50,960 bases of DNA from Neobacillus piezotolerans (GTDB lineage: Bacteria > Bacillota > Bacilli > Bacillales > Cytobacillaceae), in contig NZ_QNQT01000019.1 of assembly GCF_003362805.1 (NCBI RefSeq), positions 1-50,960 on the forward strand, in the 5' to 3' direction. Both the position numbers and the translations under genes were made by a program. Of this stretch, positions 25,345 to 41,927 are shown in pieces. Under the pieces are notes generated by a model, which did no database searches, was not told where the DNA came from, and was given only the letters and a program-made list of their open reading frames with translations. Each line of letters starts with the position of its first letter. Within the stretch, counting starts at the first letter, position 1.

Positions 25345-25363
25345 AACGGGTGAAAAATAAAAA

Positions 25364-26117: not shown

Positions 26118-26147
26118 ATCCCGTTTTTTCGTGTGGGATGTTTTTTT
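26118..26147 (+). terminator. Orphan terminator upstream of the Tad locus
   Basis: CATCCC (26118-26123) / GGGATG (26135-26140) then TTTTTTT. No protein gene upstream on this strand uses it, hinting at a small RNA or leader. Confidence 0.6.
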
Positions 26148-26194
26148 ATCTAGTTCAATAATCATAGGCGTTCTTCAGCGTAAAAGGGGTAAAA

Positions 26195-26223
26195 TTGACA
26201 GCTTTGTGAACAGATGTTACTAA
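26195..26223 (+). promoter_or_regulatory. Promoter of the Tad locus
   Basis: TTGACA (26195-26200), 17 bp, TACTAA (26218-26223); leaves a leader of about 130 nt before cpaB, which contains the palindrome CCCTAGGG just before the ribosome binding site. Confidence 0.65.
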
Positions 26224-26359
26224 ATTAATAATGGAAATTAAAAAAAACAGTTGAATTTATGTTTGTCCGCGTTGAAATGGCGGTAAATAAGAGAGGTAAA
26301 TATATCCAATTTTTATAAAATGAGAAAAAAGAACCCTAGGGTAGGAGAGAAGATGCAGA

Positions 26360-27172
26360 ATGTTAGAGTCTAAGAGAAGAGCGATTATATTTTTTGTATT
26401 AGCCTTATTATTGGCCTTGATTGCTGGATTCCTTGTATTGAAGAAAGTCCAGGCGCTAAATTCGGATCTTGGAACCATGGCCGAGGTATTCGTGGCGAGG
26501 GAAGACATTAGCTCAAGGACGCTCATTACTCCAAACAACGTTAAGAAGGAAGAAATCCCGCGAAAGTACCTTCGAAGCTATCATGTTGTGGATGTTAGGG
26601 AATTGCAAAATAAGGTGTCTGTGGTGCCTTTGTCCAAAGGGGACATCATTACGAAAAACGTCCTGAAGCAAGCCTCGGCGGTTGTGGAGGAAAATAATAG
26701 ATTAATAACTCTCATGAGCTCGGATAGGGTCTTTTTCGATGAACCTCTTGAGGCTTTGGATCGGGTGGACATAATCGTTTCTCATAAGTTTGACAGTGAG
26801 GAAAAGACGGAAATTTTCATGAAGGACGTCAAGGTGGCTCGTGTTGCGAAACGGAAGAATGAGTTCCAAGGGGTACAGGTCGAGGTGCCGCTTGAAAAAG
26901 CTCCTGAACTGATACATATGCAAAATTACTCGGACAGCGTACGAATCGTCAAAGCGAATGTAGGCAAAGAAGAAATGAATCAAGGCGCAACCCAAGGGGA
27001 AAAACCGACGGATGGCAAAGATACGATTCAGGTCCCGGCTAAACCGCCGGCGGTACAGCAGAAGCCTCCTGCCCAGCAGCAAAAGCCTGCAGCCAAACCG
27101 GCCCAGCCTGCCGGGAATAACCCTCCTTCAAAGGAAAAACCCGCAACTGGCGAGAAGCCTCCCGGAACTTAA
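26360..27172 (+). CDS. cpaB: Tad pilus assembly protein CpaB/RcpC (SAF domain)
   Basis: 270 residues: a single N-terminal membrane anchor (about 8-29), a SAF domain (about 40-110, EVFVAREDISSRTLITPNNV), a CpaB/RcpC core to about 215, and a proline/glutamine-rich tail from about 220 (repeated KPPAQQQKP-like units). In Gram-negatives CpaB works with the secretin; in Gram-positives it is an exported, wall-spanning component, the Pro-rich tail perhaps crossing peptidoglycan. GAGAGAAG precedes the ATG. First gene of the locus. Confidence 0.85.
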   Translation: MLESKRRAIIFFVLALLLALIAGFLVLKKVQALNSDLGTMAEVFVAREDISSRTLITPNNVKKEEIPRKYLRSYHVVDVRELQNKVSVVPLSKGDIITKNVLKQASAVVEENNRLITLMSSDRVFFDEPLEALDRVDIIVSHKFDSEEKTEIFMKDVKVARVAKRKNEFQGVQVEVPLEKAPELIHMQNYSDSVRIVKANVGKEEMNQGATQGEKPTDGKDTIQVPAKPPAVQQKPPAQQQKPAAKPAQPAGNNPPSKEKPATGEKPPGT

Positions 27173-27225
27173 GGGGAATAAGGTGGTTCTATATTCATAG
27201 ATAAGCATGTGACGGAGGAGACGGT

Positions 27226-28371
27226 ATGAGTAAAGAAACAAAGCTGTTCATTATCGGAGAAGAGAATGGCTTATACAATACAGTGAAAGAAGCGTTGGCG
27301 GAATTTGAACTTGTTTTTATCGAAGCTCAAAATTATCTGGCGGAATTGAAAAGGCACGAACCGCAAATCGCGATTGTGTTAAAAAATGGCTTTGAGTCGC
27401 CAGTGGACTTAATTCACTCTTTAATAAAGGAGTTTCCGGCGGTGTCCATTTTATTCATACATGACCTGCAGGATTTTCAATTGCTGCGTGATGTCACACG
27501 GGCAGGCGCCATGGATTACCTCGTCATTCCAGACGAAATCAATGTCCTGACAGATCGGGTTCAGAGCCTGGCTGCCCAGACAAGGACGAAGTCAGAAGCT
27601 GCTGTTTCGGCGGGAAGCTTTAAACGGGGGAGGGGACAGGTGCTTGCCTTTTACAGCGGAAAAGGCGGAAGCGGAAAGACCTTCCTTAGCACCGCGTTTG
27701 CCCAGACCTTGAAATTAGAATCAACCGCCCAAGTCATTTATATTGATTTGAACTTGCAATACGGCGGTGCAGAGACCTTTTTGGGAATTGACAGCAATCG
27801 CTCACTCATTGATCTGAAGCCGGTCATTCACGAGATCAACGAACACCATATCCGCAATGTCTCGGAGAAAGAAGGCTTCTCTAAGTTGGAAATCTTGATT
27901 AGCCCTAAGGATGCCGAACTGGCAGAGTCCGTGGATGAAGAATATATTACCCGCCTGCTCAGGGCCTGCCGCAGAAGTTACGACTTCATTATTGTCGACA
28001 TCCCGTCGGCTATGGATGAACGAAGTTACGCCGTGTTGACAGAAGCGGATAGAATCTTTTATGTCATGAATTTGAATACCCCTTCCATCAAAGTGCTTAA
28101 GCACGTGGAGGAATTGTTCCAGCGGCTCGGCATTGTCACAGAGGATAGGTTGGAAATCATCCTTAATGAAACAGGGAAGGAAAACGAGCTCTCCAAGAAA
28201 GACATCGAAAGGTTTGTGAAATATCCTGTCCGCGCAGAGGTTCGCCGCGACCTTAAGGGTGTGCAGGCTGCGGTGAATCAAGGGAAACCTGTCCGGAAGG
28301 AACCAAAAGAGAAGAAGTTGATCCCAGCAGCAAAGGATGTACAAAAATGGGTCGTTTCCATGTTGAAATAA
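27226..28371 (+). CDS. tadZ: Tad pilus localisation ATPase TadZ/CpaE (MinD-like)
   Basis: 381 residues. N-terminal receiver-like domain (1-125) without a convincing phosphorylation site, then a MinD/ParA-type ATPase with deviant Walker A SGKGGSGKT (144-152), Walker B IIVDIPSAMD and a basic C-terminal region. TadZ places the pilus machine in the cell. ATG behind GGAGGAGAC. 54 bp after cpaB; the next gene is separated by the folded repeat at 28391-28560. Confidence 0.88.
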   Translation: MSKETKLFIIGEENGLYNTVKEALAEFELVFIEAQNYLAELKRHEPQIAIVLKNGFESPVDLIHSLIKEFPAVSILFIHDLQDFQLLRDVTRAGAMDYLVIPDEINVLTDRVQSLAAQTRTKSEAAVSAGSFKRGRGQVLAFYSGKGGSGKTFLSTAFAQTLKLESTAQVIYIDLNLQYGGAETFLGIDSNRSLIDLKPVIHEINEHHIRNVSEKEGFSKLEILISPKDAELAESVDEEYITRLLRACRRSYDFIIVDIPSAMDERSYAVLTEADRIFYVMNLNTPSIKVLKHVEELFQRLGIVTEDRLEIILNETGKENELSKKDIERFVKYPVRAEVRRDLKGVQAAVNQGKPVRKEPKEKKLIPAAKDVQKWVVSMLK

Positions 28372-28390
28372 AGGAAAATGACTTTTTAAT

Positions 28391-28560
28391 CCAGCTACAG
28401 CGCCTAGCCCCTCGAGGTCATAAGCCGGTTCCCTCCGGAGGGCAGGCCCGTCCTCGGAAATGCCCGCATTTCCTTCGTGCGTGGGCGAATTCAGGGATGC
28501 CCATTCAGTGTCCTGCGGGCCCCGTCTTATGCTGGTCGGGGCTGCCCAAGGCGCTTCCGC
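28391..28560 (+). repeat. GC-rich folded intergenic repeat inside the Tad operon
   Basis: The ends pair: AGCGCC-T-AGCCCC (28399-28411) with GGGGCT...GGCGCT (28538-28555), and CATAAG (28419-28424) with CTTATG (28526-28531). Inside are CCCTCC/GGAGGG (28431-28442) and GGAAATG..CATTTCC (28456-28473). The wording (CAGCGCCTAGCCCCTCGAG) is that of a dispersed repeat I recall from many Bacillus genomes. It has no ORF with a start site. It may fold in the mRNA and affect processing or read-through between tadZ and tadA. Confidence 0.75.
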
Positions 28561-28582
28561 ATTTTGTTAAGGAGGTGTGATG

Positions 28583-29959
28583 ATGTCGCTTTTCCAAAGA
28601 AAAACTACAGCCAAGCCAAAGCTTGAGGCGGTACCGGAAGTCGTTGAATCCTATGTGAATCCTTATATCGACGAATTGGTAGAGCATTACAAGACGAGGC
28701 TTTTGACTGAAACCAACTTAGAACATTTAACAAGCCTGACGGAAGGGGAAAAACGCCTTCAGATTGAACGGCTGATTAACCAATTCATGGCTGAGGAAAA
28801 GGTCGTCATCCCCCGCCACGAAAAGGAGACATTGCTGTCGCGCCTGATTGATGAAAGCGTCGGCTTTGGCCCGCTTGAAGCTCTTTTGAATGACGACAGC
28901 ATTACCGAGATTTTGGTGAATGGCCCAAAGGAAGTTTTCATTGAGAGGAAAGGGCGGCTCGAGAGGTCGGATATATCCTTTCGCGATGAATCCCATGTAC
29001 GGCATATCATCGATCGGGTGGTAGCTCCGCTTGGGCGCCGTGTCGATGAAAGCTCTCCGATGGTTGACGCCAGGCTGCCAGACGGAAGCCGTGTCAATGC
29101 GGTCATCCCTCCCATCAGCCTGAACGGTACGCTGATTTCGATCCGGAAATTCCGGAAAACGCCTTTTGAAATGAAGGATTTAATGGATTTTGGATCATTT
29201 ACTGAAGAGATGTCGATTTTCCTGCAGGCCATTGTGGAAGCGAAAATGAGCATTTTGATTTCAGGAGGAACAGGAAGCGGAAAAACCACCCTGCTGAATG
29301 CAGTGGCAAAAGCCATTCCCGTTCATGAACGTGTTATCACGATTGAAGATTCCGCAGAGCTTCGGCTCAATCGCGCAAGCGTGGTAGGGATGGAGGCCCG
29401 CCCTCCGAACGTGGAGGGCACCGGGGAAGTGACAATACGCCAACTGGTCAAAAACGCCTTGCGGATGAGGCCGGATCGTATCATCGTCGGGGAGGTTCGC
29501 GGCCCGGAAGCCTTCGACATGCTTCAGGCAATGAACACTGGACATGAAGGTTCATTGACCACTGTCCATGCCAACTCGCCACAGGATGCCATCAACCGTG
29601 TCGAAGGGATGGTCGTCATGGCTGGGATGGACCTGCCAATACATATCATTCGTGAATACATTGTCGGTGCGCTTGATTTCATTATCCAGGCAGAACGTTT
29701 GAGCGATGGTTCCCGAAGAATTACGAATATCGCGGAAGTCTTTGTAAATGAGGCGGGAAAAGTCGAGGTCCTCCCAATTTTTGAATTTAGGAGAACAGGA
29801 ATTGGGGAAGGGGGCAAAGTGCTCGGAATCCATACTGCTACCGGTATTCGCCCTAGATGCCTGGATAAGCTTCGTGTTTACGGAATCAATCTTGATGACA
29901 GCATGTTTGATCCGAAAGGAGGTGCAGGCCTTGGCCACAAGCATAGCTATACTTTATAG
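28583..29959 (+). CDS. tadA: Tad secretion ATPase TadA/CpaF
   Basis: 458 residues, type II/IV secretion ATPase. N-terminal helical domain, then [21 protein letters not shown], Walker [10 protein letters not shown] (about 228-236), Asp box [11 protein letters not shown], Walker B region [17 protein letters not shown] and His box [12 protein letters not shown], all typical of CpaF. It powers pilin extrusion as a hexamer at the inner face of the membrane. Two in-frame ATG lie together; 28583 sits 7 nt after GGAGG (28571-28575). The C terminus overlaps tadB by 29 bp. Confidence 0.95.
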
Positions 29960-30860
29960 CGTTGCCGTCCTGCTTGGACTATGGGGGAGTTACTTCTTTC
30001 TAGGCTACCGCTCCCAGCAAAGGGAATGGAAACAACGGGTCAATCAGTGGTTTCCTGAAGAGAGAAGGAAAAGCAAAATCAGTGTACTCGGTGACAAGTT
30101 CGACCGGTCCCAATCGGCCGAGCCGCTTGCGCAGAAACTGCAGAACGCCAATGTGGCCCTGCTCCCATCGGAATATGTTGGTGTTCACATCCTAGGTTTC
30201 CTTGCCCTGTTTGTCTTGCTTTTCAACGTCTTCAACGTGCCGCCGTTTGTCAGTATGCTTGTTTCACTGCTGGTTTTATACATTGCTCATTACTTGCTGT
30301 TTTTCATTAGGAAAAATAAATATGAAGAGCGCTTCAACGAGCAACTTGCAGAAATCTGCCGTTTGCTCGGCAATGCAGCGAGGTCAGGCCTGACTATCAA
30401 CCAGGGGCTTGAAATAGTGGCCAGGGAAGTACCCGCGCCTGCCGGACCGGAATTTAGCAGGATTGTGAACGAGCTTAAACTGGGCGTTCCGATTGAAACA
30501 GCATTAAGGAGTGTCCAAAAGCGGAACAAGTCAAGGGAATTCCAGCTTTTCATCGCCACAATCCTGATTCAGAAAAAGACAGGCGGAAACCTGGCAGCGA
30601 CGCTAGAATCAATGGGACATACGCTTGAAGATCGTAAAGTACTGACACAGACCATCAAAACAATGACCTCGGAGCAGCGCTATATCTCGCTCATCATTCC
30701 GGCGATGCCCGTTTTCATCCTGCTCATGATGAACAACATCATTGAAGGTTTCACGGATCCCCTTTGGACTGGGCCGGGATTGATCATCTTAGTCCTCTTT
30801 CTGACAGGGCTTTTGATCTCCTTTGTCCTGATCAGAAAAATCACGAACATTAGGGTGTAA
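29931..30860 (+). CDS. tadB: Tad inner-membrane platform protein TadB
   Basis: 309 residues. N-terminal membrane segment, cytoplasmic stretch, further membrane segments near 80-115, then a T2SSF domain (LCRLLGNAARSGLTINQGLEIV; TGGNLAATLESMG) and two C-terminal membrane segments. It forms the membrane platform with TadC. The start is TTG at 29931, 8 nt after AAAGGAGG (29915-29922); longer readings within tadA have no site. 2 bp gap to tadC. Confidence 0.93.
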   Translation: MATSIAILYSVAVLLGLWGSYFFLGYRSQQREWKQRVNQWFPEERRKSKISVLGDKFDRSQSAEPLAQKLQNANVALLPSEYVGVHILGFLALFVLLFNVFNVPPFVSMLVSLLVLYIAHYLLFFIRKNKYEERFNEQLAEICRLLGNAARSGLTINQGLEIVAREVPAPAGPEFSRIVNELKLGVPIETALRSVQKRNKSREFQLFIATILIQKKTGGNLAATLESMGHTLEDRKVLTQTIKTMTSEQRYISLIIPAMPVFILLMMNNIIEGFTDPLWTGPGLIILVLFLTGLLISFVLIRKITNIRV

Positions 30861-30862
30861 TT

Positions 30863-31804
30863 ATGGATGCATACATCATATTAGCGGTCATTCTGTTTTG
30901 GCTCATGTTTGGACTCTCAATCCGCCACTTCTCCTTGTACATCCGGGAGAAAAGAGTGCTGATTGAACACATTTCAGACGTCACATACACAGATGCCTTC
31001 GAAAAGAAGGCGAAGAAGAAAAGCAGGCGGGCGGTCTGGTTCCAGAAGATGACGAAATACGCTGATGAATTTTCTGACCTGGGCCAGCGAATCAACTTTT
31101 TCAGCGAGAATGCCGATGTGGCGGAGTGGCTCCGTAAGTCGGGCAATCCGTATCAGCTTACAGTCGAACGTTTTCAAGGATTGAAGTTATTCCTGCTCGT
31201 TGTTGGGTTTTTTGCCGGAATGATTTCCTTAATTATTGGACTTCCGTTTTCTCAGTATGCGGTTATTTTCAATCCGCTCCTTGGGTATTTCTTGCCAATC
31301 ATTATCATTCGCCAGCAGGCGAAAAAAAGGCAAGAAGCACTCCGAAGGGATTTGCCGGATTTCCTGGACACCATTAGTACCAGCCTTCAAGCGGGCGTCA
31401 GCCTGGATCAAGCTTTAAGGGAGGTGATCCGTTTCTTCGACGGACCTTTAAGGGAAGAGTTTTCGCGGTTCAATTATGAAATCGATCTTGGCGTTCCAAG
31501 GGAAACCGCCTACCGCAATCTGCTTGAAAGAAACGACAATCAAGAATTTCAAGGGCTGATTAAGTCGCTTTTGCAGGGGTTGAAACTCGGAGTGCCGATT
31601 GCGACGACCTTTAAGGTTCAAGCGGAGGACATGAGGCAGCTTCGGGAAGAGCAAGTGAAGGAGCTAGCTGCCAAAGCATCCCCGAAGGTAACTTTGGTTA
31701 CCACATTTCTTGTAGCGCCTGTCTCCATTTTAATGATAGCGGGCCTGATGCTTTTGAACTTGATTTATGGAGAAAACAGTATTTTTAAATTATTTAATTT
31801 TTAA
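30863..31804 (+). CDS. tadC: Tad inner-membrane platform protein TadC
   Basis: 313 residues with the same organisation as TadB: N-terminal membrane segment, two middle segments (near 110-150), T2SSF domain (LPDFLDTISTSLQAGVSLDQAL; LGVPRETAYRNLLER) and a C-terminal membrane anchor. Paired with TadB at the pilus base. Tightly coupled to tadB. Confidence 0.93.
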   Translation: MDAYIILAVILFWLMFGLSIRHFSLYIREKRVLIEHISDVTYTDAFEKKAKKKSRRAVWFQKMTKYADEFSDLGQRINFFSENADVAEWLRKSGNPYQLTVERFQGLKLFLLVVGFFAGMISLIIGLPFSQYAVIFNPLLGYFLPIIIIRQQAKKRQEALRRDLPDFLDTISTSLQAGVSLDQALREVIRFFDGPLREEFSRFNYEIDLGVPRETAYRNLLERNDNQEFQGLIKSLLQGLKLGVPIATTFKVQAEDMRQLREEQVKELAAKASPKVTLVTTFLVAPVSILMIAGLMLLNLIYGENSIFKLFNF

Positions 31805-31823
31805 TTATATGGAGGTAATGAAA

Positions 31824-32045
31824 ATGAAAAAACTTACACAATGGTACGTAGCGGCAACAACGAAGCTTGACAGCATGGTGCGCAATGAGCGCGGTTCCCA
31901 GACATTGGAATGGATTGGAATCGCAGCGGTTGTCGTCATCGTGGTCGGGCTTATTTCAACGGCATTTGGAGAAGATAAAGAATTCGGCAAATCTGTTCTG
32001 AAGAAATTCACAGGCATGATTGATCAAATTGGCGGTGGAAGATAA
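31824..32045 (+). CDS. Flp/class III prepilin-like protein
   Basis: 73 residues. A basic leader ends in RNERG, then SQTLEWIGIAAVVVIVV: a prepilin peptidase site (cut after Gly 24) with Glu at +5 and a hydrophobic helix, the class III/Flp layout. It is the most likely main pilin. TGGAGGT (31810-31816) fits the ATG at 31824; ATGs at 31809 and 31818 are too close to the ribosome binding site. No prepilin peptidase gene lies in the window. Confidence 0.88.
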   Translation: MKKLTQWYVAATTKLDSMVRNERGSQTLEWIGIAAVVVIVVGLISTAFGEDKEFGKSVLKKFTGMIDQIGGGR

Positions 32046-32111
32046 GCCACTGTGGAACTAGTGGTTTACTAACAAGTAACTTTGATAAGTTCCAAAAAGG
32101 AGTTCTAAATA

Positions 32112-33497
32112 GTGAAAAAGTTGTTGATGCTGATTCTCATCGGTGCATCTATATCATTAACTGGATGTGTTGAGAAAGAAGATAACGTAACAAAAAAAGA
32201 AAAGCCTGCCGGGCAAGAGACCAAAAATTCCAGCAAACAGGATGAGGATGTAGCAGTCGGGAAAGAAACAGACTCATTCTTTGCAGACTTGCCCAAGGTT
32301 CCAGAAACGACTGCCGAGCTGATACATCAGCCAGCAGGCAAATTTGCCACGAAGGAAGTCCTGTCGGATGAAGTTGAAGCTGAGGTAATTAAAGAAATTA
32401 AGGATCTTCCTCCGCTTAAAGAAGATGCGGCGGAGGAAGATTATCAGAAATATTTTCAGTATGTTTATTCCTTGGTGGCTGAAGACTTTGACAATCCGCA
32501 GGACTTGATCAACAAATGGGAATTTTCCGCTTCGGGGAATCCTGATATGCCGAATTCTAAGTTTCAATTTAAAGAAAACTATAATGTAGAAGTAATTCTG
32601 GATTCAAGCGGGAGTATGGCCCAAAAAATTGGCGGAAAGACGCGGATGGAACTTGCCAAGGAAGCAATCACAAATTTCCTTTCCAGCCTGCCTGAGGAAG
32701 CCAATGTTTCACTAAGGGTATACGGCCATAAAGGTACAGGAAGCGATTCGGATAAAGCGGCTTCTTGCGGAGCAATCGAACATGTCTATGGGTTTTCAAA
32801 ATACGATGCAGGAAAATTCTCGGCAGCTTTGGATAAATTCAAGCCTAGCGGCTGGACGCCTGTAGCGGATTCTCTTGAATCATCCAAGCAAGCTTTTGGA
32901 AAATTCGATGCCAAAACAAACACAAACCTGATTTATTTGGTGTCAGACGGCATTGAAACATGTGATGGCGATCCTGTGGCAGTCGCAAAATCCTTCGCGG
33001 ATTCGAATATCTCCCCCATTATCAACGTCATCGGATTTGAAGCTGATCAAAAAGCCCAGCAGCAGCTGAAAGAAGTAGCGAAAAGCGCGAATGGCATCTA
33101 TACAACAGTCAATAGCCAGGAGCAACTCGAACAAGAGTTTGAACGTGCGCAGGAGGTCCTCAAAAGATGGGAGGAATGGAAGCACGATTCATTAAGGGAT
33201 GCGGATGCTCAAAGGGTTGACAACAATTTCGATATTTTAGGCTTTTCCAACGATTGGGGCTATAAACAGGATAGCCAAAGGCTGAACGTGAACCATGCCC
33301 TTTATATTCTTAAGGATGAAAAGAAAATTACTCATAACCAGATGGAAAAATTGAGAGGGATTAGTTTTAAGCAGGACGAACTCGTGCAAAAGGCTCAGGA
33401 TGAAATCAATGAGACTCTTAAGGCGCTCAATCTTAAGAGTATAGAAGAGCTGAAGAAACAGATTAATGAAAAATATAATTCTAGCACTCAAAATTAG
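32112..33497 (+). CDS. von Willebrand factor A domain lipoprotein 1
   Basis: 461 residues. Lipobox SLTGC (Cys 19), a charged linker with Lys/Glu, a 100-residue acidic region, then a vWA domain from about 157 with the full MIDAS: DSSGS, the Thr of GWTP, and the Asp of SDGIE. The charged helical C terminus continues for about 110 residues. vWA domains of this type bind metal and protein ligands at the cell surface. Its paralogue is at 40180. GTG start behind AAAAAGGAG (32095-32101). It lies directly behind the pilin, so it may be a pilus accessory or adhesin-like part. Confidence 0.9.
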   Translation: MKKLLMLILIGASISLTGCVEKEDNVTKKEKPAGQETKNSSKQDEDVAVGKETDSFFADLPKVPETTAELIHQPAGKFATKEVLSDEVEAEVIKEIKDLPPLKEDAAEEDYQKYFQYVYSLVAEDFDNPQDLINKWEFSASGNPDMPNSKFQFKENYNVEVILDSSGSMAQKIGGKTRMELAKEAITNFLSSLPEEANVSLRVYGHKGTGSDSDKAASCGAIEHVYGFSKYDAGKFSAALDKFKPSGWTPVADSLESSKQAFGKFDAKTNTNLIYLVSDGIETCDGDPVAVAKSFADSNISPIINVIGFEADQKAQQQLKEVAKSANGIYTTVNSQEQLEQEFERAQEVLKRWEEWKHDSLRDADAQRVDNNFDILGFSNDWGYKQDSQRLNVNHALYILKDEKKITHNQMEKLRGISFKQDELVQKAQDEINETLKALNLKSIEELKKQINEKYNSSTQN

Positions 33498-33517
33498 AAT
33501 ACTGACAATCAGGATTT

Positions 33518-33558
33518 CGATGTGGCGGTATACCAAAGTGACTGGCATGGCCACATCG
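33518..33558 (+). other. Intercistronic hairpin after the first vWA gene
   Basis: Perfect 9-bp stem CGATGTGGC (33518-33526) / GCCACATCG (33550-33558) with a 23-nt loop and no T run; more likely an mRNA processing or stability element than a terminator. Confidence 0.5.
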
Positions 33559-33763
33559 TTCCTTTCCAATCCTTTTCTGCCTTCCCTCCCCCGCTGGATG
33601 ATTCAGGCTACGGTTCCACAAAGGAAATGATCGGGAAGGAAGCATGTTGGTTTATTTTTGAGTCTTGCAATTAGAATTCAGACGGATTATTCGTGTTTTA
33701 AAAAAACACATGAGTGAGGACTTCCAGGTATTTGCTGCATATGTGGGGAAAGTGGGGAGGACA

Positions 33764-35230
33764 GTGCAAAAAAAGTTAATTAGTAGAATGGCTGCCATTT
33801 TTGCGATTGCTTTCGTGCTCTTTCAATCGTTCTCCATTCCGGTTCTGGCGGCCACCATCAAACCGTGGAGCGGGAATCCTTGGACAGGGGACTCATGGGA
33901 AGGGAACCCATGGAGTGGAAACAAACTGAAATGGGAAGGTGACCCGTGGGAAGGGCAAGGTACAAAAGGGAATTCATGGACAGGAGATTTAACGGATCCT
34001 GGAAACCCTTGGTCTGGTACAGATTGGTCCAGTATCCCATGGTATCTTGATCCATGGTCTGCAGAGGGCTGGACAGCTAACGGCTGGAACGCAAATGGAT
34101 GGACTGCTGACAGCTGGGCGGCTAATGGCTGGAATGCGAATGGATGGACTGCTGACAGCTGGGCGGCTAATGGCTGGAATGCAAACGGATGGAATGGTGA
34201 CAGTTGGGCGGCTAATGGCTGGACTGCAAACGGCTGGACCGCTAACGGGTGGACAGCTAATGGCTGGACCTCGAATGGGTGGCAAGGCAATATCCCTGTG
34301 ATTGGCGGCGGTTGGTCCGGAAACAGCTGGAATGTGACTCCGAACAATCCCGGCGGAGCCAACAAAGGAAATGTTCCTATTCCTTATGTGATTCCGAATA
34401 ATGGCGGATTCATGCCATATACATTGCCAAATCCACCAGGTAAGAATGGTGAAGGCCCTTCCAAATACAGTGGGTATGACTGGTTCAAATTTGGCATGAA
34501 GGACGTCGGGACTGGCTCTTATTCACTCATGAAGGAACAACAAATCAATTTTTCAAATCTAAAGAAATGGAGTCCCCAATCAAAGGAATTTTATCTGGAA
34601 CTATTAAAAGCCTCCTATAAATTTTCCGCCAAAGATATAGACCTTCTCGAAGTGGGGCCAGCGGGGCTTGATGTGCCAAAGACTTTCTTGGATTATAAAA
34701 ATAACTTAAATAATGCAAATACAGCTTATGGAGTCGGACTAAACAAAGTTGCGCTCGGATTAGCGAACCCTCAGGATGCCATCAATAATTTCAAGGGCAC
34801 CGACCTAGCAACAATAAGGGGACAAATTCTAACGGCGGGACAACAAGCTTTTAATAAAGCAGCTCAATTTAAGAATCTAGCGCCTTTAGGAAGGCTGAAT
34901 GTTGTCTCTGCGGCTGTAGGGGCGGGATTTTCCGGAATCGATACAGGAAGAAACATTTGGGATTTACACAAAGCGAAAAATTCCGCAGAAAAATTAAAGG
35001 CCAATTCCAGTTTAAACCAGAGTTCAGGTGAACTTCTGAGGACTGTAGGGACCGGTATTGCCATGTTTCCTGGCGGACAGGTCGTTGGTGGCGCATTGAT
35101 TTCTTCCGGGGCTGCCCTGTGGGCGGGAGGGACCTTAGTGAAACACTGGCCTACGATTAAAAATGCCCCTGGAAATCTGGCGAATAGAGTAAAAAGCGGA
35201 TTGAAGAAATTGAAAGGCTTTTTCTCCTGA
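33764..35230 (+). CDS. Secreted tryptophan-repeat protein 1
   Basis: About 488 residues. Signal peptide (basic start, AIFAIAFVLF core, cut near VLAA), then Trp-rich units: KPWSGNPWTGDSW-type units, followed by 15 consecutive 5-residue units of the form GWTAN/GWNAN/SWAAN (34067-34291). After a Gly/Pro/Asn linker comes a conserved-looking alpha-helical domain and a C-terminal Gly/Ala-rich hydrophobic segment (GGALISSGAALWAGG) with a basic tail. No family recognised. Start uncertain: GTG 33764 gives the clean signal peptide but its GGGGAGG is only 3 nt away; ATG 33710 and TTG 33665 are longer alternatives. Paralogue of the protein at 37394. Confidence 0.82.
   Translation: MQKKLISRMAAIFAIAFVLFQSFSIPVLAATIKPWSGNPWTGDSWEGNPWSGNKLKWEGDPWEGQGTKGNSWTGDLTDPGNPWSGTDWSSIPWYLDPWSAEGWTANGWNANGWTADSWAANGWNANGWTADSWAANGWNANGWNGDSWAANGWTANGWTANGWTANGWTSNGWQGNIPVIGGGWSGNSWNVTPNNPGGANKGNVPIPYVIPNNGGFMPYTLPNPPGKNGEGPSKYSGYDWFKFGMKDVGTGSYSLMKEQQINFSNLKKWSPQSKEFYLELLKASYKFSAKDIDLLEVGPAGLDVPKTFLDYKNNLNNANTAYGVGLNKVALGLANPQDAINNFKGTDLATIRGQILTAGQQAFNKAAQFKNLAPLGRLNVVSAAVGAGFSGIDTGRNIWDLHKAKNSAEKLKANSSLNQSSGELLRTVGTGIAMFPGGQVVGGALISSGAALWAGGTLVKHWPTIKNAPGNLANRVKSGLKKLKGFFS
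34067..34291 (+). repeat. 15-bp coding repeat for GW-x-x-N units
   Basis: Fifteen 15-bp units each encoding Gly/Ser-Trp-x-Ala/Gly-Asn/Asp. A higher 45-bp order is visible: units GWNAN-GWTAD-SWAAN at 34082-34126 and 34127-34171, and a variant at 34172-34216. The last units are simpler (GWTAN three times). Confidence 0.95.
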
Positions 35231-35313
35231 CCTCCATGGAGAAAACAATGCAAGAATTTATATTGCCTGATTCGGCAGAAAAAATAAAAGGTTCCTAGAA
35301 AGGTTACGCATAC

Positions 35314-35412
35314 ATGTGTCCCCAAATGTTCAAACAAGAAAAAATGCTTCAGAAGAAGCTGGGCAACAAGAACTTTAAAGACAAGAATGCGGCAATTGAG
35401 GAGAAGGATTAA
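35314..35412 (+). CDS. Possible 32-residue basic peptide
   Basis: A short ORF, MCPQMFKQEKMLQ onwards, highly charged, ends one base before the ATG of the next gene, with GAAAGG 10 nt upstream. Its stop abuts the following start as in translational coupling. Could be chance; no homologue recognised. Confidence 0.25.
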   Translation: MCPQMFKQEKMLQKKLGNKNFKDKNAAIEEKD

Positions 35413-35413
35413 G

Positions 35414-36112
35414 ATGTTTCTTTCATTCAGAGATGCTTTCAGGTTATACACGGGGAGGTTCGAGGGAGTACTGCTGCTCTCCCTCACCATCGTCCTGCCG
35501 CTATTGCTGGGCATTTGGTTTTTAAATAATATTGTTTACTTTTTTGTATTTGACGAATTTACGTCTGCGATTGCCGATTTTTATTACATCTTCCTCACTT
35601 TTTCAGTCCTGATGATTGCTCAAGTTCCGTTCATCGAGATGGTCAAGAGCTATGCTGAGGAGGGAGATTATAAGTATAGGAATATTTATTATGCATTCTT
35701 TACTACCGCCTTTTCCATTTTCTTGTTTGCCATCGCTGTTTCTTTAGCTGCAACGGTAGGGACTATGTTCTTTATCATTCCGGGCCTTATCCTGCTGGTT
35801 TTCTTTTTTACGGCCCCCTATGAATCTGTTATGAGCGGCAAGTCAATCTGGAAATCGATAAAGCCTTCTTTCACTTTTGCGAAGAAGAAATTCTTCCCGC
35901 TGCTTTCCATTATTTTGTTTATTTCTCTAGTGGAAATCATCATAGGATGGATCGGAATGTATGTCATTTATTCAGTCACTGCCTCGCTGCTCGCCCAGAT
36001 TACTGTGCAAATGCTGTTGAACCTCGTCTTTTTTCCATTCCTCAGCATTTGGATAGCTTTCTACTATCTGTCCTGGAAGGAGGGGCATCAACTTGCTCCT
36101 GAAGTTCGCTAG
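35414..36112 (+). CDS. Six-segment membrane protein of the Tad locus
   Basis: 232 residues with about six membrane segments and short soluble loops (MVKSYAEEGDYKYRN; APYESVMSGKSIWKS), resembling YciC-like/GDPD-membrane-domain proteins in layout but not identified with confidence. Start ATG 35414 behind GAGGAGAAGG. The end overlaps the following TadE-like gene by 20 bp, tying it to the pilus unit. Confidence 0.8.
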   Translation: MFLSFRDAFRLYTGRFEGVLLLSLTIVLPLLLGIWFLNNIVYFFVFDEFTSAIADFYYIFLTFSVLMIAQVPFIEMVKSYAEEGDYKYRNIYYAFFTTAFSIFLFAIAVSLAATVGTMFFIIPGLILLVFFFTAPYESVMSGKSIWKSIKPSFTFAKKKFFPLLSIILFISLVEIIIGWIGMYVIYSVTASLLAQITVQMLLNLVFFPFLSIWIAFYYLSWKEGHQLAPEVR

Positions 36113-36542
36113 CGTCATCAGAGAATCGATTTGTTCAAGCCGGGCAGCCAGCATACTTAAAGAAGATAGGGGATCGTCAACCATTGAGTTCCTCGGGATA
36201 TTGCCGATTGTCATTATCGTCCTATCGGTTATGTGGCAGATGATTGTCGGCGTTCATGGGGTAGTTGTTGCGCAATCGGCAGTCAATGAAGCGGCTAAAG
36301 TCTATTCCATTACAGAAGATGCGCTGGAAGCGAGCAAAGCGGCCGAGAACATCGTCTCGACGGCGAGCGGGTATTTGAGCCTTGCGGGAGCGCCAATTGA
36401 AGGAACGGGAGATTATGATCCGAAATTCACTGCCAAGGTGAATGTCGATATTAGGCTCGTGTTCCTTCCAGAGAAGTTGTTTGGCGGCACTACTCCTTCT
36501 GTCACCTATACAACTGAAGCCACAGGCCGGGTGATCAAATGA
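36093..36542 (+). CDS. tadE: TadE-like pseudopilin
   Basis: 149 residues. A prepilin-like junction, DRG then SSTIEFLGILPIVIIVLS (Gly 27, Glu at +5), followed by a hydrophobic helix (about 33-50), then a beta-rich extracellular part. TadE is a minor pilin needed for Flp pilus assembly. TTG start at 36093, 8 nt after AAGGAGGGG (36077-36084). Overlaps the next gene by 4 bp. Confidence 0.88.
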   Translation: MLLKFASVIRESICSSRAASILKEDRGSSTIEFLGILPIVIIVLSVMWQMIVGVHGVVVAQSAVNEAAKVYSITEDALEASKAAENIVSTASGYLSLAGAPIEGTGDYDPKFTAKVNVDIRLVFLPEKLFGGTTPSVTYTTEATGRVIK

Positions 36543-37228
36543 GTAGGGTAAAAGAGCTGCTCAGGCAGGAGGACGGCAATACAGCCCTTTTCCTCATGGG
36601 GATGATTGGGATCATGATGATCATGTTTGTTTTTGTCCTCAACCTTGCCCAGGTTTTTGCCGTAAAGGAACAGGCTAACACGACTTCACAGCAGGCAAGC
36701 CTCGCCGCAACCTCTGTCCTCTACAACAGGATTTGGGAAAAAATCAAGGATCATTCGGATGTGCCAGCGCCAGTGCCTGTGCCAGTGCCTGTTATTTTAG
36801 AAACGATCGAAGAAAAAGTCGATAAAAGAATAATGGATTTGAACAGTGACCCGCGCTTTTCAAAATTCAGCGACAATGAAATCCGTCTTGAAGCGATTGA
36901 CCAGGTCGTAACAGAGGAACTGGATAAGCCGCAAGGGAGAATTTTCCTGAAACCAAAAATTGAAGCAGAACTGCCATATGCCTTAAGGGAAATGGAAGAT
37001 GCCGCCAGGGAAACTATACTGGCCAATGGGGGAAATACCTCGGAGGCTAAGCTTTTCATCAAGGATAATCAAATCCATGTAAAAGCATCCAATACCGTGG
37101 AAGGAACGGCTTATGGGAAGTTTTTTGGTGATTTAAACGAAAAGCTTTTTCAGGAATCAGCTGGCCCTGAAGTGAAATTTCTTGAAAAATTCTCTGGATA
37201 CGAAGGATATGAAGCCTCAATTGATTAA
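36539..37228 (+). CDS. TadG/TadE-like pilus protein
   Basis: 229 residues. N terminus LRQEDG then NTALFLMGMIGIMMIMFVFVL, a TadG-like anchor near residues 14-35 with a possible prepilin site (Gly 13) but no Glu at +5. A Pro-Val repeat (APVPVPVPV) and a long charged helical and beta region follow. Minor pilin or pilus tip/base protein. ATG overlaps the stop of tadE. Confidence 0.8.
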   Translation: MSRVKELLRQEDGNTALFLMGMIGIMMIMFVFVLNLAQVFAVKEQANTTSQQASLAATSVLYNRIWEKIKDHSDVPAPVPVPVPVILETIEEKVDKRIMDLNSDPRFSKFSDNEIRLEAIDQVVTEELDKPQGRIFLKPKIEAELPYALREMEDAARETILANGGNTSEAKLFIKDNQIHVKASNTVEGTAYGKFFGDLNEKLFQESAGPEVKFLEKFSGYEGYEASID

Positions 37229-37296
37229 AAGGTGTGCCAGAGGCCATATAAATCGGAAAAATAACTTGAATCAAATTCAGCCAAGAAGAAATGAGG

Positions 37297-37327
37297 AAGC
37301 TTGATTCTCCAACGTATCAAGCTTTTT
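37297..37327 (+). terminator. Terminator between the two halves of the Tad locus
   Basis: AGCTTGAT (37298-37305) / ATCAAGCT (37316-37323) followed by TTTTT, extendable by flanking GGAA/TTCC. Splits the locus into two transcription units or gives partial attenuation. Confidence 0.85.
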
Positions 37328-37393
37328 CCTGCATATATGGACAGCCAGACATTTTAGCCCAATAAAATATAGAGAAGGATTGGAGGTTGTGGT

Positions 37394-38605
37394 GTGTACA
37401 AACGCCTGAGACGGACTGTTGCTGTATTGTCCATTTGCTTAATTTGGGCTATTGGAATGATGCCGGTGGCTACTTTTGCTGAAGTGAAGCCTTGGAAGGG
37501 GAACCCTTGGGAAGGCACCCCCTGGGAAGGAAACCCGTGGGAAGGGGAAACTTGGGAAGGGGAGACATGGGAAGGCGAATCATGGGAAGGTAATTCAGGG
37601 GAAAATCCTGGAGGAACCGGACCGGGTAGCCAGAATTCAAACTATCCTGGAGGAACCGGACCAGGTGGCCAGGATCCAAACAATCCTGGAGGAACGGGAA
37701 CGAATGGCAACGATCCAAACAATCCTAACGGGACTCCGGATGGAAACACAGGCCCGTGGACGCCTGGGCAAAATGGCGACAATCCTGAAGGGAACGGGCC
37801 AGGGGCTCCCGGCCAGGAACCAGGAGCCCCAGGAATACCTGAATTTGGTCCCAACAGCCCCTACCAACAGAGCAAACTACTGGGCTGGCAATTTTATGCC
37901 GGTAAAATTGCAGGAATCGGTTTCACATCGGCAACCAGTTTATTAGCTTATCAAAATGGCCATCGTTTGCTTAGAGTCATAGACGGTGCGACCGGTCAAA
38001 CGACAAACTACCTAGCAACCGGAACGAAAAAACTGACGGTGCCAGCCAATGCCCCCTGGTATAAAAAAGCGACCGTGCCTGTTCAGAATTTCCTGATGGA
38101 AATAGGACGAAACGGCAAAAAGGTGAAGGATGCCTCTGTCAAAAAGACTTTTAATCTGCTGCCAGGGAAGAAAGAATTGAGGGTGCTTCCGCCAAACAAC
38201 CATTATGTAAACCCGGGGTCCGCTTTTAAGCACAGGCTTGCTAAAGGGGGCGGATGGGCAATCAACAGTGGTTTTGCCATCTATGGTGCCTATAAGCAGC
38301 ATGGCTTTGGAAATACCGATTTTGTAGCAACAGCCGTTACGGAAACTGCTTTCAGCGTCGGTGCAGCCGCAGCGGGTTCCGCCATAGGAACCATGATTGC
38401 TGGTGCGGCGATTGGTTCTTCGGTGCCCGTTGTGGGAACGATTATTGGTGCCTTTGCAGGAATAGCCATAGGATTTGCGCTTGAAACAAATGTGGGCAGA
38501 AAAGTGAAGGATTTTGTCCGAACAAATGTGAAAAAAGGATTGGACAAAGGGGTTTCCTTGGCGAAAAAAGGCTGGTCGGTGGTGAAGGGCTGGTTTGGTG
38601 GTTAA
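37394..38605 (+). CDS. Secreted tryptophan-repeat protein 2
   Basis: 403 residues. Signal peptide (cut near TFAEV), then seven 5-residue units W-E/K-G-x-x (residues 34-68), then a collagen-like Gly/Pro/Asn linker (GGTGPG, NPNGT, GAPGQEPGAPG) to about 155. The C-terminal domain has a long Gly/Ala zipper (SVGAAAAGSAIGTMIAGAAIG) and a basic amphipathic tail ending KGWSVVKGWFGG. It matches protein 1 in the PW-x-GNPW start, repeat logic and tail. The glycine zipper could insert into membranes. GTG start with GGAGGT upstream. Confidence 0.85.
   Translation: MYKRLRRTVAVLSICLIWAIGMMPVATFAEVKPWKGNPWEGTPWEGNPWEGETWEGETWEGESWEGNSGENPGGTGPGSQNSNYPGGTGPGGQDPNNPGGTGTNGNDPNNPNGTPDGNTGPWTPGQNGDNPEGNGPGAPGQEPGAPGIPEFGPNSPYQQSKLLGWQFYAGKIAGIGFTSATSLLAYQNGHRLLRVIDGATGQTTNYLATGTKKLTVPANAPWYKKATVPVQNFLMEIGRNGKKVKDASVKKTFNLLPGKKELRVLPPNNHYVNPGSAFKHRLAKGGGWAINSGFAIYGAYKQHGFGNTDFVATAVTETAFSVGAAAAGSAIGTMIAGAAIGSSVPVVGTIIGAFAGIAIGFALETNVGRKVKDFVRTNVKKGLDKGVSLAKKGWSVVKGWFGG
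37493..37597 (+). repeat. 15-bp coding repeat for W-E-G-x-x units
   Basis: Seven units, each TGG-GAA/AAG-GG-N plus two codons, encoding WKGNP, WEGTP, WEGNP, WEGET, WEGET, WEGES, WEGNS. The unit length equals that in the first Trp-repeat gene. Confidence 0.9.
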
Positions 38606-38649
38606 TTGCAGCCCTGCTCCAACACCCTACGCAGTTCAGGAGGTTTTTT

Positions 38650-39027
38650 ATGGTTTTATCTAGGTTGTTTATCGCGATTTGTACAGGAATATTCCTTTCA
38701 GCTGGTTTTGGCTATGTTACGTTTTATCTTCCGTTTTTAAATAATCTTTTTGGGGTAATGGTGTGCCTGGCGGTTACGTATATAGCCGCCGGGCTCCTCA
38801 GTGCCTGGGCTTGGGAATCTGGCCCTTATATGGCAGCCACGATTACGGGCGCTGTGGTATGTTTGTTCAATTATTTTTTCATGGTCCTTCTCGTGGCGGG
38901 GGATATGATTTTCACCCCAGACATCTTTGGCCTCTCCCTCTTATTGGCCATTATGTTCAGCAACCTGGGTGCCTTGATTTTTAAAAGCAGGAAAAGGAAA
39001 CGAGAGGGGGCCAGTGCATGGCATTAA
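38650..39027 (+). CDS. Four-segment small membrane protein
   Basis: 125 residues, about four hydrophobic segments and a basic tail (KSRKRKREGA). No family recognised. CAGGAGG precedes the ATG. Overlaps the next gene by 10 bp. Confidence 0.75.
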   Translation: MVLSRLFIAICTGIFLSAGFGYVTFYLPFLNNLFGVMVCLAVTYIAAGLLSAWAWESGPYMAATITGAVVCLFNYFFMVLLVAGDMIFTPDIFGLSLLLAIMFSNLGALIFKSRKRKREGASAWH

Positions 39028-39482
39028 ATACCCATCCATCGGTGGAAGACGAAGCCCTTTATCAAGGGAGTTTCTTAAGGCCTAGTATCCGCATGGCTCC
39101 AGTCTGGCTGACCGTTCTCTTAAGCATATTGACCTTAGGAATTTATTACCCTTACTGGCTGCTTAAAAGGAGGGATGAGGTGAATAGGCTTGCGGGGAAA
39201 AAAATCATACATAAATGGGTTCCGTGGCTCGTATTGATTTTGTATTCAGTTTCCGCGCTGGTTTTTACGATTGGACCGTTCTTCCTAAATGAAATTGCCA
39301 TCATGCTTTATGAGTATATCGATAACTTAATTACTGTCTTTGGGGTTTCGTGCATAATCTGGTATTCTTTTAGAATAAGAGAAGTGCTTTTGGAAAAGAT
39401 GGAGGATGAATCAATTAATGGCATCTTGACATTTTTTCTAACCATTTGGTACTTGCAGTATAAAATCAACAAGATGGAATAA
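39018..39482 (+). CDS. DUF4234-like membrane protein
   Basis: 154 residues with three or four membrane segments. The motif SILTLGIYYPYWLLKRRDEVN after the first segment is that of DUF4234 proteins; function unknown. Translationally coupled to the preceding gene. Confidence 0.7.
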   Translation: MALNTHPSVEDEALYQGSFLRPSIRMAPVWLTVLLSILTLGIYYPYWLLKRRDEVNRLAGKKIIHKWVPWLVLILYSVSALVFTIGPFFLNEIAIMLYEYIDNLITVFGVSCIIWYSFRIREVLLEKMEDESINGILTFFLTIWYLQYKINKME

Positions 39483-39552
39483 TGAATAAAATATTTTCAA
39501 AAAAACCAGTAACTTGAAAGAGCTGGAAGTGACTATTTCTGGAGGTGACGAA

Positions 39553-40137
39553 ATGAATTTAGGACCGTATTGGGAGGACCCGCTTGCGAACAATGTCATC
39601 CCATCTGTAATCCTCCCTCTCATAACAATTTTTTCCTTTATGTTCTATCCGGAGAAAAGTGATACTGCTGTAATAGTTGGCCTCATCGCCAGTTTGGTGT
39701 TGGTCGCTGCCTCTGTAATCACCAAAGTGAAGAACCTCCAATATTATTTGAACTGGCGTCTTGGAGTCATGATGCTATTCATCGATTCCGCGATGATATT
39801 CATGGCGCTGACCATCTCCAGGGCGTACGGCAAATTCCTTCCTTGTATACTATTGCTGTTACTAATGCTGATAGCGATTGTATTAAGCCATAAATTTGCC
39901 GAAAGATATTTGGATGAACTTCATTCTCCAAAGACTAAATTAGGCAAAATGATCATCTTGATCGGATTCATCGGAAGCGGTGGAGGAGCAATGATTGGCT
40001 ATATTTCCACCCAGACAATTGGCGCACATATCGCAGCCCCTATCATATTCATAGTTGCGCTCATTGTCGTGGGCTTCATTCACGCCCGCTTCCAGCTTGT
40101 GGCCATCGAAAAAAAATACGAAGCCTTCGACAGGTAG
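39553..40137 (+). CDS. Multi-segment membrane protein
   Basis: 194 residues, about six hydrophobic segments, short loops, no signal peptide. Family not recognised. GGAGGTGA (39541-39548) selects the ATG at 39553 over an in-frame start 13 residues earlier. It may form part of an envelope complex with its two neighbours. Confidence 0.75.
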   Translation: MNLGPYWEDPLANNVIPSVILPLITIFSFMFYPEKSDTAVIVGLIASLVLVAASVITKVKNLQYYLNWRLGVMMLFIDSAMIFMALTISRAYGKFLPCILLLLLMLIAIVLSHKFAERYLDELHSPKTKLGKMIILIGFIGSGGGAMIGYISTQTIGAHIAAPIIFIVALIVVGFIHARFQLVAIEKKYEAFDR

Positions 40138-40179
40138 AATCTACCGATCGAAGGTTTATTCGTTTGTTGGGGGAATTTG

Positions 40180-41556
40180 ATGAGCAAACACTACGGTAAA
40201 TTAGTTGTGTTCATGTTTTGCTTCGCATTGATGGCTGGCTGTCAGCAGGATAAGGAAGCAGCCAAAAAACCCGCCAAGGAAGAACAGGCGGTAAAAGCTG
40301 AGGGAAAAGAAACTCCCAAACAGCAGCCAGATGAAAGAAGCAGCACGTTTAGTTCTGATGCTCCAGAACTGCCTGCCAATCTTGAAGGAGCCCTCAAGTA
40401 TACTGCCGGTAAATTTTCGGCTAAAGAAACGAAAGACCTGGATGATGAGGTAAAAGCTGAATTAAGCACTGTCCCGAAGTTCCCTGAAAACGCGGATGAG
40501 GAACAGTATGATACTCTCATCAGGTACCTTTATTCTCTTTATAAACGCGATTATGTGGACCCGAGGGAAGCGTTAAAGGCCCAGCAGGTGGGAGCGGCGC
40601 CGGCTTCCCAGGATGCTCCTGCAGAAAAAGGGACATATAATGTTGAAGTTATTCTCGATTCAAGCGGAAGCATGGCCAATAAAATGGGATTAAAAACCAG
40701 GATGGAGCTGGCCAAGGAAGCAATCCGTAAATTTGCCGCATCCCTGCCTAAGGAAGCCAATATCAGCCTCCGTGTGTATGGCCATAAAGGAACAGGGGCC
40801 GAGAAAGATAAACAGCTTTCCTGTGGGTCCAATGAGCTGGTTTACAGCCCGCAATCCTTCAATGCATCCGGACTTGACACTGCGTTAGGAAAGTTCAAAC
40901 CAGCTGGGTGGACGCCTCTTGCCGGGGCAATCAAGGCGGCCCAAGATGACCTTGCAGCCTACAAAGGCAAGGAGAATAAAAACATCATTTATATTGTCAG
41001 TGACGGAATCGAAACATGCGGTGGGAATCCCGTGGCAGCCGCGGAAAGCTTGAAGGCTTCCGGAATTGACCCGGTAGTGAATATCATCGGGTTTGACGTG
41101 AATGCCAAAGATGCCGAGCAGCTGCACAGCATTGCAAAAGCGGCAGGCGGCATATACAAGAATGTTCAAAACCAGGATCAGCTGCAGAATGAATTCCAAA
41201 AATCAATTCAAGAATCATTGGATTGGATTAATTGGAAGAATAAAGAATCGTTAAATGCTCTGACCAAATCTAATAATCAAATGCTGGATATTTATGGACT
41301 GACGAATGAATGGAGAGCAAAAATTCGCCAAGAACAGTATTTAGTCCAGTTTTCCCTCGTAGAACTGGATAGCCAGGGCAAAATTACAAATAAACAAAAC
41401 TATGAAATCTTTGAGCGGGCAAAGGGATTTTTCAACAAAGAGATCGAGCTTGTAGATGAATTGGAGAAAACACTCATTCAGTCCACGAAACAGGATTTGG
41501 ATACGACTTTAAAGCAAATCGACAGTATTTATGAGCAAAATGTCTCCCAGAAATAA
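40180..41556 (+). CDS. von Willebrand factor A domain lipoprotein 2
   Basis: 458 residues. Lipobox LMAGC (Cys 21), charged linker, helical middle part, vWA from about 152 with MIDAS DSSGS, GWTP and SDGIE, and a long charged helical tail. It is clearly paralogous to the vWA lipoprotein at 32112 (shared RVYGHKGTG, GIETC, IGFD/E). Similar to B. subtilis YwmC/YwmD by memory. Start ATG 40180 behind GGGGGA. Ends the locus, followed by a bidirectional terminator. Confidence 0.9.
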   Translation: MSKHYGKLVVFMFCFALMAGCQQDKEAAKKPAKEEQAVKAEGKETPKQQPDERSSTFSSDAPELPANLEGALKYTAGKFSAKETKDLDDEVKAELSTVPKFPENADEEQYDTLIRYLYSLYKRDYVDPREALKAQQVGAAPASQDAPAEKGTYNVEVILDSSGSMANKMGLKTRMELAKEAIRKFAASLPKEANISLRVYGHKGTGAEKDKQLSCGSNELVYSPQSFNASGLDTALGKFKPAGWTPLAGAIKAAQDDLAAYKGKENKNIIYIVSDGIETCGGNPVAAAESLKASGIDPVVNIIGFDVNAKDAEQLHSIAKAAGGIYKNVQNQDQLQNEFQKSIQESLDWINWKNKESLNALTKSNNQMLDIYGLTNEWRAKIRQEQYLVQFSLVELDSQGKITNKQNYEIFERAKGFFNKEIELVDELEKTLIQSTKQDLDTTLKQIDSIYEQNVSQK

Positions 41557-41585
41557 AGGGTGGGGACCTAGAATATAAAAATAAT

Positions 41586-41612
41586 AAACCAGGCTGCCGG
41601 GCAGCCTGGTTT
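41586..41612. terminator. Bidirectional terminator at the end of the Tad locus
   Basis: Perfect 12-bp stem AAACCAGGCTGC (41586-41597) / GCAGCCTGGTTT (41601-41612). T-rich on both sides; it serves the vWA gene and the convergent membrane protein gene. Confidence 0.93.
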
Positions 41613-41615
41613 ATT

Positions 41616-41927
41616 TTAAAAATGCTGATGGTAGGTTTTCGTACTGGCCCTGTAGGCATCAAGCAAAATGACGACGGCGGAAATCATATGCATGACCATG
41701 CCGACAAAAGGAATCCAGCCAATTACCGAAGTAATCAAACCAATAATATTCCCTGCCTTGGTTTCATCTTCCCTGACCGCAAACACAATCGTGACAATAT
41801 GCAGGATGGCCATCAAAAATAAAGGCGTCCAGGCTGTCGAAAGAATGATTATGCCGCCGAGGACAGGAATTCCCAGCAGTGCCTCAAGGCCGCCGGTAAT
41901 CCATTTTAAGATGGTTGAAGTTCTCAT
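41616..41927 (-). CDS. Small membrane protein
   Basis: 103 residues, three or four hydrophobic segments (GIIILSTAW, FLMAILHIVTIVFA, IIGLITSVIGWIPFVGMVMHMI). Conserved-looking but no family identified. Ribosome binding site GAGGGGA upstream. Convergent with the Tad locus. Confidence 0.78.
   Translation of the reverse strand: MRTSTILKWITGGLEALLGIPVLGGIIILSTAWTPLFLMAILHIVTIVFAVREDETKAGNIIGLITSVIGWIPFVGMVMHMISAVVILLDAYRASTKTYHQHF

Follow-up and report, generated by a model that had tools for sequence, protein, structure and literature searches.

Tight adherence (Tad; also Flp or type IVc) pili are mainly tied to adhesion, and TadG proteins bearing a von Willebrand factor type A (vWA) domain occur in Tad systems elsewhere. 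Here we describe a Tad locus of Neobacillus piezotolerans, located in a 50,960-nucleotide stretch (contig NZ_QNQT01000019.1, positions 1 to 50,960; the window) of a 4.5 Mb genome. The Tad operon occupies positions 26360–37228, and a run of genes on the same strand (+), which carries all genes described below, continues to 41556. CpaB, TadZ, TadA, TadB, TadC, Flp, TadE, and a TadG-like protein are all encoded in the window, as in other Tad pili, and by these core genes the locus is classed as a Tad system. It differs from the familiar Tad pilus in that the vWA domain resides on a separate lipoprotein rather than on TadG, and in that exported repeat proteins and their partners are added. The operon-like run comprises the complete Tad core, two vWA lipoproteins (vWA1 and vWA2), two exported proteins with tryptophan-containing repeats (Trp1 and Trp2), and four membrane proteins (mem1–mem4), which confirms the inventory of the initial annotation.

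A Tad-linked killing system of a diderm predator, the Kil system of Myxococcus xanthus with its interchangeable Tips, is described in the portion of PMC12075869 used here. As far as that portion and the corresponding part of PMC8460266 go, Kil and the loci described here have in common a Tad-type pilus, variable exposed domains, and contact-dependent effects, the last putative in our case; the Kil Tips (PMC12075869) come closest as a functional idea. In the same portion of PMC12075869, the variability of Kil, whose Tips are heterotrimers of minor pilins, lies on the minor pilins KilL, KilM, and KilN, which work with a needleless base resembling a type III secretion system; in the window and its relatives, by contrast, the variable parts are free-standing proteins with a signal peptide and, among relatives, additional Flp-like pilins as well, and partner genes adjoin them. 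Polymorphic toxin systems, as presented in part of PMC3482391, likewise combine a constant front end, an exchangeable C-terminus, an adjacent partner, arrays, and orphans, and PT-TG and EndoU domains occur in relatives of the locus. The payloads of the window are not recognised toxins, however, and pilin, pilus, and prepilin are absent from the part of PMC3482391 examined. The locus behaves like a polymorphic toxin system in modularity, with a shared N-terminal module and exchangeable C-termini; despite this modularity, the window proteins are not filed as polymorphic toxins, because they have no recognised toxin domain. A search of the open-access literature by title and beginning of abstract returned no description of these loci; subscription papers and preprints lie outside its scope, so absence from print is not shown.

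We give an even chance to the reading that the locus represents a Tad pilus subtype of Bacilli, with polymorphic payload cassettes and cognate immunity. Sequence comparison establishes the architecture, the partner specificity (with the exceptions given below), the carrier–payload modularity, and the Tad linkage. By this comparison, the cassette in relatives (loci and genomes are given our own L and G numbers) consists of a vWA lipoprotein, an exported protein with an exchangeable C-terminus (T1, T2, or lipase-like), and type-matched partners, and the window contains a T1 cassette (vWA1–Trp1–mem1) and a T2 cassette (Trp2–mem2–mem3) in one run, followed by the congener-like mem4 and vWA2. More tentatively, and somewhat short of an even chance, Bacilli Tad pili would deliver or display polymorphic toxins via two interchangeable carriers, either a Flp-pilin N-terminus or a signal peptide with locus-specific short tandem repeats, and Trp1 and Trp2 would be membrane-active payloads in one chimeric island.

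Trp1 (33764–35230; 33764 is the most likely start) is composed of a signal peptide, W-pentads, and a C-terminal T1 domain ending in KGFFS. Trp2 (37394–38605) is composed of a signal peptide, W-pentads, and a Gly-rich C-terminal T2 domain ending in KGWFGG. The two proteins have the signal peptide and the W-pentads in common, and their C-terminal domains belong to different families. The T1 and T2 proteins of relatives are organised in the same way, with short tandem repeats directly after the signal peptide and the C-terminal domain after the repeats. Three C-terminal kinds were profiled: T1 (from Trp1), T2 (from Trp2), and GZB, which is without repeats. In the first set, all 37 T1 and T2 proteins of at least 300 residues end with F plus up to three residues.

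The repeat sequences vary between loci (NPWEG, NFTPG, GNMAP, EVNPP, FPEAKP, and others), and W-pentads are rare, occurring in 4 of the 398 genomes of our class (Bacilli) set. Tryptophan as the key feature, the view of the initial annotation, was rejected because of the other repeats found in relatives. When frames below 300 residues are left out, the repeat period peaks at lag 5 or 10 in 24 of 29 T1 proteins and at 7 or 11 in the other five; it is 6 or 12 in all seven T2 proteins outside the window, while the T2 protein of the window has W-pentads like its T1 protein. A universal period of 5 was considered and rejected, since those five T1 proteins and all seven non-window T2 proteins peak at other lags.

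Two exported proteins of one locus tend to have similar repeats, also where their C-termini differ. Among 58 exported proteins, which provide only nine within-locus pairs, the mean 3-mer Jaccard similarity of the repeats is 0.249 within loci (0.155 without an identical pair from L086) versus 0.035 between loci, and 0 of 2000 label shuffles reach 0.249. The C-terminal values, in comparison, are 0.061 within and 0.055 between loci. Five of the nine pairs exceed every comparison with other loci. Shared ancestry within one genome may add to this likeness, for which the C-terminal comparison serves as the control. Broken or cut pieces (for example, in L018, L019, L023, and L085) were left out of the repeat comparisons.

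The cassette genes co-occur with TadA. The exported-protein profile A1 matches 7 of the 121 genomes of our family set, in 7/7 next to a TadA with ≥66% identity. At ≥64% identity, TadA is present in 16 family genomes; the 15 loci fetched besides the window's own contain vWA in 15/15 and T1 or T2 in 15/15. Three of the eight family TadA matches at 59–61% identity were also fetched (L067–L069), and their GZB-like label, like that of L105, was assigned by eye. In the class set, TadA (E ≤ 1e-150) is present in 66/398 genomes, T1 in 47/398, and both in 44 (Fisher p 3e-38), and 44 of 56 T1 genes lie within 12 kb of a listed TadA. From the 66 TadA-positive genomes, 20 TadA-seeded loci (L086–L105) were picked to spread over families; 19 of them contain vWA and 16 contain T1, T2, or GZB, the other four being L095 (a pilin–lipase), L105 (GZB-like), L099, and L104. 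Other loci were seeded by vWA1 (L012–L047), by the lipase partner described below (L136–L147), or by the W-pentad profile (L083–L085). The initial annotation had assigned the Trp-repeat and vWA genes to the Tad locus, and with A1 always beside TadA in the family and 44 of 47 T1 genomes carrying TadA, this assignment stands; the genes are not found mostly apart from tad genes. If the locus encoded an ordinary adhesive pilus of the Tad type and its neighbours were hitch-hikers, this would be consistent with the frequent transfer of Tad systems (PMC6668835, in part) and with the presence of the locus in some genomes of the genus and its absence from others, but the co-occurrence and the gene order are conserved across the class. 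On these counts this explanation is already unlikely, and we give it very little credence.

The same counts are compatible with a structural role, which is the strongest rival. T1 and T2 would then be parts of a monoderm Tad pilus, namely an exported, membrane-seated conduit, anchor, or adhesin that takes the filament across the thick wall; vWA would be its lipoprotein partner, and the toxin-like pilin and repeat fusions would have come to use this export route later. We consider this doubtful, though a substantial possibility. A T-type protein is present in all 15 family loci and 16 of the 20 class loci; T1, T2, and GZB mostly substitute for one another; Pfam detects no toxin fold in T1 or T2; and the loci contain vWA and mem1 almost as often. 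The window, on the other hand, has two different T proteins in a single operon, and type-specific partner genes and lipase-like payloads, presented in the following, also argue against a structural role.

The partner genes follow the C-terminal type in relatives, with a few exceptions named below. T1 is followed immediately by the gene fam2 in 28 of 29 cases, with the window as the sole exception, and in 14 of 17 cases in L083–L105. None of the ten non-window T2 loci contains fam2; instead, eight contain a DUF4234 protein and seven contain m200. Trp2 of the window is followed by mem2 (38650–39027) and the DUF4234 membrane protein mem3 (39018–39482), both of families common to T2 loci; the Trp2, mem2, and mem3 families also occur jointly in L060–L065. 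Extra or orphan copies of partner genes, likewise at odds with a structural role, occur as well. The model of fam2 (L043 protein), with a predicted local distance difference test (pLDDT) score of 93, consists of a small β-sheet and a helical bundle.

In relatives, lipase-like α/β-hydrolase domains are placed on the same kinds of carrier. Matches to Lipase_3 or Mbeg1-like are over the cut-off in L014, L098, L136, L137, L139, L144, and L145 and weaker in the remaining proteins scanned, and a GHSLG or GHSQG elbow is present in 14/14 lipase-like proteins. In three loci the lipase is attached to repeats (W-pentads in L014, FPEAKP in L098, LNPPE in L139) that resemble those of the local T1 protein. 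In L095, L136, L137 (two proteins), L142, L143, L144, and L145, it is attached to a Flp-pilin-like N-terminus instead. The lipase of L140 has a signal peptide and other short repeats, that of L141 is free-standing, and that of L146 is cut by the contig start. Other pilin-fused domains are PT-TG (1.6e-5) and EndoU (1.1e-7), both over the cut-off, and Amidase_6 (9e-15); a Tse3-like muramidase match on a pilin-fused protein is below the cut-off. The Flp-pilin N-termini of payloads were assigned by motif, as matches to DUF4244, which we take to be pilin-like, are below the cut-off except in L147. The lipases of L014, L095, and L098, which were found independently of the partner, are each followed by a homologous membrane protein (28–31% identity). 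This partner forms arrays of 2, 4, and 7 copies after lipases (4 and 7 in L143 and L146) and occurs without a lipase in the stretch examined in L096 and L138. These pilin- and repeat-carried enzymes strengthen the earlier proposal of export or display with contact-dependent effects, which they do not prove. One Tad locus, L142:8830-19001, encodes four pilin-fused proteins (PT-TG, lipase-like, Tse3-like below the cut-off, and amidase); another PT-TG-like copy, recognised by eye, lacks the pilin portion.

Several observations weigh against payload cassettes with cognate immunity. Almost all loci of the subtype have a T-type protein, which would suit a structural component too. Three genomes (G137, G374, and G428) have T1 but not this TadA, and the TadA-seeded L099 and L104 are without any T-type protein. 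Trp1 and Trp2 have no Pfam or NCBIfam match and no recognisable toxin domain, and the structure model of T1 (pLDDT 52) is too poor for a structure search. Trp1 is without fam2, for which the rest of the window genome was searched with no match. Foldseek with the fam2 model finds no credible solved relative (best E 0.11), and fam2 lacks a transmembrane segment, which is odd for immunity against a pore former. The fit between partner and type is imperfect, as the T1 loci include one with m200 (L024) and one with a DUF4234 protein (L096). Four of the nine within-locus repeat pairs are equalled or beaten by between-locus comparisons (30/112 for L015 and for L014, 19/112 for the window, and 6 for L028), because W-pentads are common to related loci. 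At most lipase loci the adjacency of lipase and partner is by construction, because the partner was the query. Full-length matches to the lipase partner in the class set are found in 13 genomes, 12 of them with this TadA (p 2e-9), at a cut-off (E ≤ 1e-38) that was set after inspecting the list, and at E ≤ 1e-8 the link is weaker (18/43 genomes, p 2e-5). Rapid divergence was dropped as proof of an arms race and carries no weight here, because the divergence of tadG and mem1 is similar to that of Trp1.

T1 and T2 contain Gly-rich, moderately hydrophobic stretches that are mostly helical by low-confidence prediction. These stretches suggest membrane action and would also suit a structural anchor. 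PADLOC reports weak matches of Trp2 to LeoB and PDC-M09B over a hydrophobic stretch, and sequence searches of solved structures with the T1 and fam2 profiles give nothing credible. A match to DUF6861 in one of 20 proteins was dropped, as it was not repeated in four of these 20 scanned singly.

If the loci do carry toxin cassettes, the front end of signal peptide and repeats would, as a carrier, couple the protein to the Tad machine of its locus, the C-terminal domain would be a payload with its site of action at another cell's membrane or wall, or outside, and the partner genes would protect the producer. Membranes would be the target of T1 and T2, which are Gly-rich, mostly helical by the low-confidence prediction, and have a conserved F at the end. 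The vWA lipoprotein would either provide docking on the outer leaflet, at the base of the pilus, or protect the surface. A Gram-positive Tad subtype with swappable, partner-guarded payloads would add a toxin delivery route, and some of its payloads would be enzymes fused directly to pilin-like N-termini; the pilin–lipase fusions should then sit in the filament, and the neighbouring membrane protein should neutralise them. The locus may be an overlooked Gram-positive route for toxin display or delivery.

The locus looks chimeric rather than duplicated. Among eight genomes of the genus, the flanking moxR is present in 8/8, and a Tad locus is at this site in three (the window, L055, and L056), with the same downstream flank. 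For the other five (L070–L074), the 20 kb next to moxR show no tad gene; L072 has a lacI-type gene ~0.6 kb from the downstream flank gene, and no lacI was seen in the stretches examined for the remaining four. Compared with L055, the flanks are 75–95% identical (lacI 87%, dn103 93%, gnat 75%, moxR 95%), the genes from cpaB to tadG, including mem1, are 26–67% identical, and mem4 (39514–40137) and vWA2 (40177–41556) are 77% and 75% identical. In L056, mem4 is absent and the vWA2 identity is 73%. The middle part is nearer to other genera (L012/L043: TadA 79/76%, TadC 80/80%, vWA1 55/62%). Because the flanks, mem4, and vWA2 match the congener while cpaB–tadG match other genera better, the pattern is most simply read as the arrival of a Tad core with vWA1–Trp1–mem1 that displaced most of a resident allele, of which mem4 and vWA2 would be remnants. 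moxR–DUF58 genes are found downstream of vWA or Tad genes in the window and in L012, L018, L035, L037, L043, and L044, so this chromosomal slot may be common beyond the genus.

The initial annotation had proposed that the module is duplicated and that the Tad machine displays the Trp-repeat proteins, which the vWA proteins would hold or fold. The presence of vWA in nearly all loci of the subtype and the conservation of the metal-ion-dependent adhesion site (MIDAS) in 66 of 68 vWA proteins would be in line with it; both window lipoproteins keep the MIDAS motifs. Its two halves, however, are nearest to different sources according to the identities above and carry different C-terminal families, and are thus different cassettes; the repeats need not contain Trp; and vWA also occurs alone, including a third copy in the window genome, while L084 has Tad and T1 with no vWA match. 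The duplication was rejected on the identities and the C-terminal families, and we consider the proposal as a whole improbable. The vWA family alone is not Tad-specific: TadA is present in the stretch for 25 of 36 vWA-seeded loci, and the five congeners without the locus have one to three vWA genes each, none near a listed TadA. The gene for vWA1 (32112–33497) has its nearest relatives in L043 and L012, as does the tad core. vWA genes stand in a row of three in L013 and of four in L099, with runs of three or four also in L066 and L138; some of the five vWA frames of L066 may be fragments of one gene. A transglutaminase-core lipoprotein (L054:15497-17206; Pfam 1e-25) lies near vWA genes, and by eye similar lipoproteins lie near vWA in L046, L057, and L067.

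The identities of the Tad core genes are backed by Pfam and NCBIfam matches. The operon starts with cpaB/rcpC (26360–27172), the tadZ/cpaE-like ATPase gene (27226–28371), and the tadA/cpaF ATPase gene (28577–29959), followed by the platform genes tadB (29907–30860, an internal start chosen in a frame that begins at 29748) and tadC (30863–31804, by domain match), so the ATPase and both platform proteins are present. The Flp major pilin (31815–32045) has no Pfam match and was identified by homology and a prepilin motif (RG^SQTLEW) read from the sequence. After Trp1 comes mem1 (35387–36112), a protein with multiple transmembrane segments, a weak YciC match, and a family present in most T1 and T2 loci. 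The minor pilins are tadE (36093–36542; domain match, start uncertain) and the tadG-like gene (36539–37228), in which no vWA domain is detected; pseudopilin matches are TadE at 1e-4 (22.8 bits versus a cut-off of 22.9) and Tad at 3e-6, over the cut-off. Among the operon frames scanned there is no prepilin peptidase, an A24 peptidase being found elsewhere in the genome (L051), and neither a secretin nor TadV was seen. Rfam at gathering scores gives no match in 25300–42600. A strong terminator-like hairpin of 15 pairs (41583–41615, no strand assigned) lies between the operon and a convergent gene.

In the L049, L050, and L051 stretches, the same genome has two additional TadA loci that are more remote (53 and 50% identity), and also a cluster with other type II/IV ATPases and a prepilin peptidase. 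L085 looks degenerate: it keeps cpaB, vWA, mem1, T1, fam2, tadE, and tadG, a search of it for TadA found none, and T1 adjoins a frame that by eye resembles a transposase. Outside the Tad locus, the GC content of the window falls from ~55% at 11–15 kb to 35–42% at 15–22 kb, with a sharp border at 14000–16000.

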